From Syntrophus aciditrophicus (GTDB lineage Bacteria > Desulfobacterota > Syntrophia > Syntrophales > UBA5619), in contig DYLD01000012.1 of NCBI GenBank assembly GCA_020722315.1, positions 1 to 33,738 on the forward strand: a DNA stretch of 33,738 bases. Direction: 5' to 3'. Of this stretch, positions 42 to 31,317 are shown piece by piece; position 1 is the stretch's first letter; every line of letters begins with the position of its first letter. The translations under genes and the position numbers were made by a program. The notes under the pieces are model-generated. The model made no database searches, was not told the DNA's origin, and was given only the letters and a program-made list of their open reading frames with translations.

Positions 42-52
42 TTTTCCTCCTT

Positions 53-242
53 GAGACCTTTGAAAAATGCTGCCTGAAGCGCGATTTCAAAGATTTTTCG
101 GGGTACCCCGCCGTCGCAGCAAGACTCTAAAGGCGTTAAAAACGCGAACAATAGAGAGCGGTTAGCCTGTAGAGTCGCTGCGAGAAGCCGCGGGGTCGAA
201 AAAGATTTATGAGTGCGAAAGGCGGCGTTTTGCAAAGTTCTC
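53..242 (+). repeat. Interspersed palindromic element, copy 1 (~190 bp, imperfect terminal inverted repeats)
   Basis: GAGACCTTTGAAAAATGCTGCCT at the left end and GGCGGCGTTTTGCAAAGTTCTC at the right end. Internal blocks GGTACC, GGCGTTAAAAACGCGAAC and CGCGGGGTCGAAAAAGAT are shared with copies 2 and 3. Flanked by TCCTT at 48-52 and 243-247. Confidence 0.9.
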
Positions 243-348
243 TCCTTGAGTCAAATTATCCGACACGTTTTTGCATATATCTAATTTCCTTGTCTTTTGT
301 CCAGATATTTTTCAAGAAGAGGGGCCGAAATCTTTTTTTATGCTTTAT

Positions 349-2263: not shown

Positions 2264-2456
2264 GAGACCTTTGAAACATGCTGCCTGAAGCGCTATTGAT
2301 TTTTCTTAGGTACCCTACCGTCTTGAGCAAGGCTCTACAGGCGTTAAGAACGCGAACTATCCCAGAGCGTTTAGCCTTCTAGAGCCATGTCCAGAGACGC
2401 CGCGGGGTCGAAAAAGATTTGATCAGCATAAAAAGGCGGCGTTTTTTAAAAGGTCT
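2264..2456 (+). repeat. Interspersed palindromic element, copy 2
   Basis: GAGACCTTTGAAACATGCTGCCTGAAGCGC ... GGCGTTAAGAACGCGAACTAT ... GCCGCGGGGTCGAAAAAGATTTGATCAGC ... AAGGCGGCGTTTTTTAAAAGGTCTT; aligns to copies 1 and 3 over its full length. Confidence 0.9.
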
Positions 2457-2491
2457 TTGATTGTGACTCGTTGTAGGCAGGATGGTTTTCG

Positions 2492-5918: not shown

Positions 5919-5951
5919 AGACCTTTGAGACCTTTGCAAACCGCCGCCCTC
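5919..5951 (-). repeat. Truncated end of the interspersed element (solo terminal repeat)
   Basis: GAGACCTTTGCAAACCGCCGCCCT (5927-5950) matches the right-end terminal repeat (GAGACCTTTGCAAAACGCCGCCTT) at 22 of 24 positions. AGACCTTTG is tandemly duplicated at 5919-5927 and 5928-5936. Confidence 0.65.
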
Positions 5952-31126: not shown

Positions 31127-31317
31127 GAGACCCTGGAAAAATGCTGCCTGAAGCGCAAATTTATTGATTTTTCGAGGTACCCCGCCGTCAAAGCCAAGGC
31201 TTTAAAGGCGTTAAAAACGCGAACTATAGAGAGCGTTTAGCCTTTGAAGCCGCCGCGAGACGTCGCGGGGTCGAAAAAGATCCGATCAGCGCGAAGGCGG
31301 CGTTGTGCAAAGGTCTC
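31127..31317 (+). repeat. Interspersed palindromic element, copy 3
   Basis: GAGACCCTGGAAAAATGCTGCCTGAAGCGC ... GGCGTTAAAAACGCGAACTATAGAGAGCG ... CGCGGGGTCGAAAAAGATCCGATCAGC ... AAGGCGGCGTTGTGCAAAGGTCTC. Confidence 0.9.

Follow-up and report, generated by a model that had tools for sequence, protein, structure and literature searches.

Background

Compensatory base changes in the two arms of a stem are usually taken as proof of RNA function. The DNA described in this work exhibits such changes in copies of a dispersed repeat, and the closest described counterparts of that repeat are small mobile elements. In particular, the bacterial MITEs ERIC, Correia/NEMIS, and Chunjie of Geobacter uraniireducens resemble our element in being 100-235 bp long, possessing terminal inverted repeats and target duplications, forming a long stem-loop, and occurring as both intergenic and in-operon copies (PMC2229807, PMC10969869). 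However, they differ from it in their ends and sequence: the element analyzed here has GAGACC ends and varied 5-bp duplications rather than the TA-bearing termini of ERIC and Correia, and the TA-type insertion and termini by which ERIC, Correia and RUP are recognized are absent from it. It also differs from the known MITEs in its interior, which represents a family of hairpins with conserved loops, shared across a phylum. The RAYT-associated REPINs are likewise dispersed, mobile DNA hairpins with conserved end motifs, in which compensatory stem changes are common (PMC3116915); however, REPINs consist of paired REP sequences, whereas our element has terminal inverted repeats with 5-bp duplications. 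Finally, paired changes can be created and maintained by template switching, without any selection on RNA (PMC8794818).

A palindromic MITE-like element

The window, i.e. the whole stretch of 33,738 nucleotides analyzed here, corresponds to contig C36 in a draft genome of 3.02 Mb, assembled into 422 contigs. The first-pass annotation pointed to an internal stem that reads GACTCTA/TAGAGTC in copy 1 of the repeat (123-129 with 170-176), GGCTCTA/TAGAGCC in copy 2 (Table 1), and GGCTTTA/TGAAGCC in copy 3 (31198-31204 with 31245-31251), with pairs changing between the copies from A-T to G-C, from C-G to T-A, and to T.G. The bases, the coordinates and the changes were all confirmed in the sequence. 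According to the comparison with shuffled sequences, each of the three copies folds into a single long hairpin spanning the entire element (z of -7.5, -4.7 and -6.5 for copies 1, 2 and 3, respectively), with an energy of -86.1 kcal/mol for copy 1 over its whole length. For copy 2, inspection of the junctions revealed no target duplication, and cmsearch gave no match to the covariance model R1 described below.

Table 1. Coordinates of the three copies of the element in the window and of their parts
Feature	Position	Strand	Evidence
Target duplication (5 bp) left of copy 1, TCCTT	48..52	.	sequence
Copy 1, full length, GAGACC...TTCTC ends	53..242	+	nhmmer family match and termini
Copy 1, conserved 143-nt hairpin core, common to relatives phylum-wide	77..217	+	cmsearch R1, 66.9 bits, E 7.5e-14, full length
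Copy 1, inner (apical) stem, 5' arm GACTCTAAAGGC, contains the stem reported previously	123..134	+	sequence, fold, arm linkage, R1 alignment
Copy 1, inner (apical) stem, 3' arm GCCTGTAGAGTC	165..176	+	sequence, fold, arm linkage, R1 alignment
Target duplication (5 bp) right of copy 1, TCCTT	243..247	.	sequence
Copy 2, decayed, 5-bp gap in the left arm	2264..2457	+	sequence, nhmmer
Copy 2, inner stem, 5' arm GGCTCTA	2331..2337	+	sequence
Copy 2, inner stem, 3' arm TAGAGCC	2380..2386	+	sequence
Copy 3, flanked by an hpf-like gene and rapZ (rpoN-hpf-rapZ gene order)	31127..31317	+	
Copy 3, conserved 143-nt hairpin core	31151..31293	+	cmsearch R1, 60.8 bits, E 2e-12
Copy 3, inner stem, 5' arm GGCTTTAAAGGC	31198..31209	+	sequence
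Copy 3, inner stem, 3' arm GCCTTTGAAGCC	31240..31251	+	sequence

In the genome as a whole, the repeat family yielded hundreds of candidates at first look and comprises at least 113 distinct copies dispersed on many contigs, 93 of them near full length; the copies were gathered as stretches around matches, and their count is a minimum. When aligned, the copies carry at either end the terminal inverted repeats GAGACCTTTG, extended to GAGACCTTTG(A/C)AAAA..., and the inverted ends of the copies read GAGACCTTTGAAAAATG.../...GTTTTGCAAAGGTCTC. Exact direct duplications of 5 bp, none longer and with varied target sequences, flank 24 of the 44 copies of this genome in which both ends are recognizable, compared to a mean of 0.72 in the control with shuffled partners, which is the signature of DNA transposition. 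Terminal inverted repeats, a duplication of fixed length, and a short, dispersed, multi-copy sequence devoid of an internal transposase gene are features of MITEs, and each repeat is a copy of a MITE-like, non-autonomous mobile element, palindromic and about 190 bp long. The genes that flank them are found in all orientations (++ 21, -- 18, +- 10, -+ 18) without any bias.

Among 70 copies with flanks, 36 lie with the whole element inside an open frame, mostly on the minus strand, and some of them lengthen long frames (e.g. L012:957-1146 and L130:647-839). The window also contains a solitary end-like sequence GAGACCTTTGC at 5927-5937, where the rest of the element is absent.

Covariation among the copies of one genome

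In an alignment of 95 genomic copies, no two of which are identical, the positions of the inner stem do not vary independently. Its Watson-Crick pairs number 968, compared to 849 after the right arms were swapped among the copies (maximum of 891 in 2000 shuffles), and the arm-by-arm normalized MI is 0.29, compared to 0.076 at distance-matched sites, with the exact partners as the top pairs. In the second pair of the stem reported previously (columns 73:125) GC is found in 67 copies and AT in 8, while the fifth pair (columns 76:122) is TA in 27, CG in 25 and GC in 19. The same swap reveals no pairing excess in the outer, mid and core stems; it is limited to the inner stem.

One could argue that the element is an ordinary MITE, whose paired changes reflect a handful of old differences between haplotypes, coinciding by chance and without meaning. 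This would agree with the tree-based null, under which 2 of the 69 stem pairs are significant (the second pair of the reported stem is at E 0.27), both of them from a single subfamily, whose haplotype also contains unpaired sites that score equally high. Upon removal of this subfamily, whose stem is the most divergent, the arm-average linkage drops to the background. However, columns 73:125 and 76:122 stay linked without it (permutation p 0.0005), and the covariation across genera described in the next section is overwhelming (376 vs 94), both of which contradict a chance origin and make it very improbable. We judge the tree-based test as too strict, because the copies are mosaic and no single tree fits them: 84 copies contain 64 block haplotypes, four gametes are present at 420 of the 528 site pairs, and r2 among the copies declines from 0.24 to about 0.05 past 15 nt. 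The copies mix alternative multi-base blocks in almost free combination (e.g. L019:983-1178 and L043:989-1179), which would imply intense recombination or conversion among dispersed 190-bp sequences.

A different source of paired changes without selection on folding is template-switch repair, in which one arm of the quasi-palindrome serves as the template for the other during replication, and matched changes result as a side effect of mutation. Such repair has been documented (PMC8794818, PMC8604942), the matched changes occur in multi-base blocks (GGCGGCGAAGCC/GGCTTTGCCGCC, linked in 12 of 12 cases), and G.T intermediates are few. However, template switching should homogenize the outer and core arms as well, yet there is no arm linkage in them, and the asymmetric loops stay conserved across genera; we therefore regard it as an improbable explanation. 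The proposal that folding is under selection, or is actively maintained, rather than in simple decay is supported in the case of the inner stem, most strongly by the comparison across genera, although the tree-based null is much less favorable to it.

A hairpin family shared across the phylum

Related genomes have, in the first comparisons, the arms but not the interior in common with this genome, and they bear hairpins of like design with another interior. The covariance model R1, which has 143 positions with 47 pairs and was made from 13 of these hairpins and none from this genome, recovers copies 1 and 3 of the window at full length (Table 1), and aligns the stem reported previously to its apical stem. 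R1 matches 83 of the 154 genomes of the order, which represent 33 of its 53 genera, as well as 29 of the 345 genomes sampled across the phylum, including families outside the order, commonly with at least several matches per genome. Among 44 matches from about 40 genomes, 41 of the 47 pairs exhibit two-sided changes, and the double-change cells number 376 compared to 94 after shuffling, in an alignment that was fitted to the model and is hence biased towards it; the pairing is lost when the partners are slid. The inner hairpin alone, aligned by sequence, agrees with this result (24 double-change cells vs 7.0). The relatives hardly vary in their apical motif, CTGTYTGAGC...GCGAGTT, while this genome has a different tip. 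The interior of the element is therefore one member of a phylum-wide hairpin family, in which the stems covary and the apical and internal loops are conserved.

No family of Rfam 15 other than tRNA was matched above its gathering score either in the window or in the relatives' loci, and a literature search with the letters of the apical motif returned no match. The LOOT RNA (RF03000) was considered and rejected: the full-length match of copy 1 is weak (13.1 bits vs the cut-off of 46.4) and was treated as chance, none of the order's genomes scores as high as the cut-off, and this genome's own match is located elsewhere. It is tempting to speculate, if only tentatively, that we are dealing with an undescribed phylum-wide class of mobile hairpins, in which the 143-nt folded core with the apical motif CTGTYTGAGC-hairpin-GCGAGTT is the selected unit, the outer arms vary by genome, and the folded strand would be recognized by a recombinase or an RNA-binding partner. 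Since the family is widespread, multi-copy and absent from Rfam 15, it is likely to be met in many genomes and may be annotated as RNA genes by mistake.

In another family of the order (L055, L173-L183, G021) the hairpin lies within a longer repeat with conserved upstream DNA, and two copies end in the middle of the hairpin. One relative (L057:1375-1543) has a different palindromic insert at the tip of the hairpin, suggestive of another repeat inserted in the loop. In the relatives' loci (39 in total) the hairpin is antisense to co-directional neighbors 11 times and sense 3 times, a tendency that is absent from the copies of this genome.

RNA or DNA hairpin

Covarying stems with conserved apical and internal loops resemble a structured RNA, and the transcribed hairpin could act as an sRNA, an mRNA-stability element or a protein-binding RNA that is spread as a mobile cassette. 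The transcripts of known MITEs (NEMIS, ERIC) affect mRNA (PMC2229807), and copy 3 resides within an operon-like gene order. With a definition of pairing that does not favor G.T, the 19 most distant genomes also have an excess of G.T over A.C (66:45, p 0.057), which leans towards RNA. However, wobble is preferred neither in relatives taken one per type (41 G.T to 40 A.C) nor in the decaying copies of this genome, in which terminal-branch changes of Watson-Crick pairs lead 77 times to G.T and 79 times to A.C (these counts rest on a tree of mosaic copies, with private changes the least affected). For all 39 genomes the ratio is 123:103, while the SRP RNA used as a control gives 30:15, a modest separation (p 0.036). 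In the apical stem, all 11 pairs vary on both sides in the relatives, yet 433 are Watson-Crick, 8 GT and 3 AC (1.8% G.T). No promoter- or terminator-like signals above chance were found around copies 1 and 2, and the random orientation of the copies and the lack of an Rfam family likewise speak against an RNA, which we consider unlikely. The almost pure Watson-Crick stems and the near parity of G.T and A.C speak for a hairpin at the DNA level, or for template-switch repair, rather than for an RNA of one strand.

An RNA selected on one strand should tolerate G.T but not A.C, and thus the ratio of 77:79 suggests that single copies are not maintained as RNAs. The copies decay neutrally after insertion, with no sign that individual copies stay folded, and what preserves the pairing is probably the spread of the element itself rather than a role of every copy as a working RNA gene. 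Of the "functional RNA or cruciform" suggested by the first-pass annotation, a hairpin kept in the propagating lineage is supported, while an RNA at each copy is unsupported, given the 5-bp duplications, the 77:79 ratio, the random orientation and the near parity of G.T and A.C. The underlying observation is sound; the three copies in the window are transposed DNA, with the pairing probably kept in the spreading lineage and not in each copy.

The explanation that we favor, and to which we give about an even chance, is a MITE-like mobile hairpin whose interior has to fold for the element to spread. A trans-acting enzyme would recognize the termini and insert the element with a 5-bp stagger, and the interior would have to fold, most likely when the DNA becomes single-stranded or forms a cruciform in the course of replication or transposition. 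If folding is needed for spread, only the source copies are selected for pairing and the inserted copies drift; the compensatory changes in the window would then distinguish the source subfamilies from one another and would have been reshuffled as the copies recombined. This is a large, well-replicated case of compensatory change in DNA that was transposed and whose copies drift once inserted, which makes the level of selection, that of the element or that of the host, directly testable. Its interest lies in this chance to separate the two levels and in the wide, unlisted family of hairpins.

Search for the mobilizing enzyme and outside relatives

No transposase with these ends was found in the 422 contigs of this genome (DDE_Tnp_1 family). 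The sole DDE_Tnp_1 gene sits on a contig, C146, that contains no sequence of the family, and C146 was therefore rejected as the autonomous element. On this short contig (L171), the DDE transposase frame of 565 aa lies beside a frame that resembles, by eye, an IS1595-type transposase; going by its size, the DDE transposase is presumably IS1634-like. A partner transposon was also sought via paired GCAAAGGTCTC ends, and none was convincing among the 100 places listed.

A DNA similarity search of plasmids and phages revealed no relatives of the element. Hairpins with the same apical motif are present in contigs of a viral collection (L266:31-133, L280:1142-1264, L265:1089-7995, and L277:4287-4429), and L266 additionally has GGCGTTAAGAA...TTTAGCC in common with the interior of the element from this genome.
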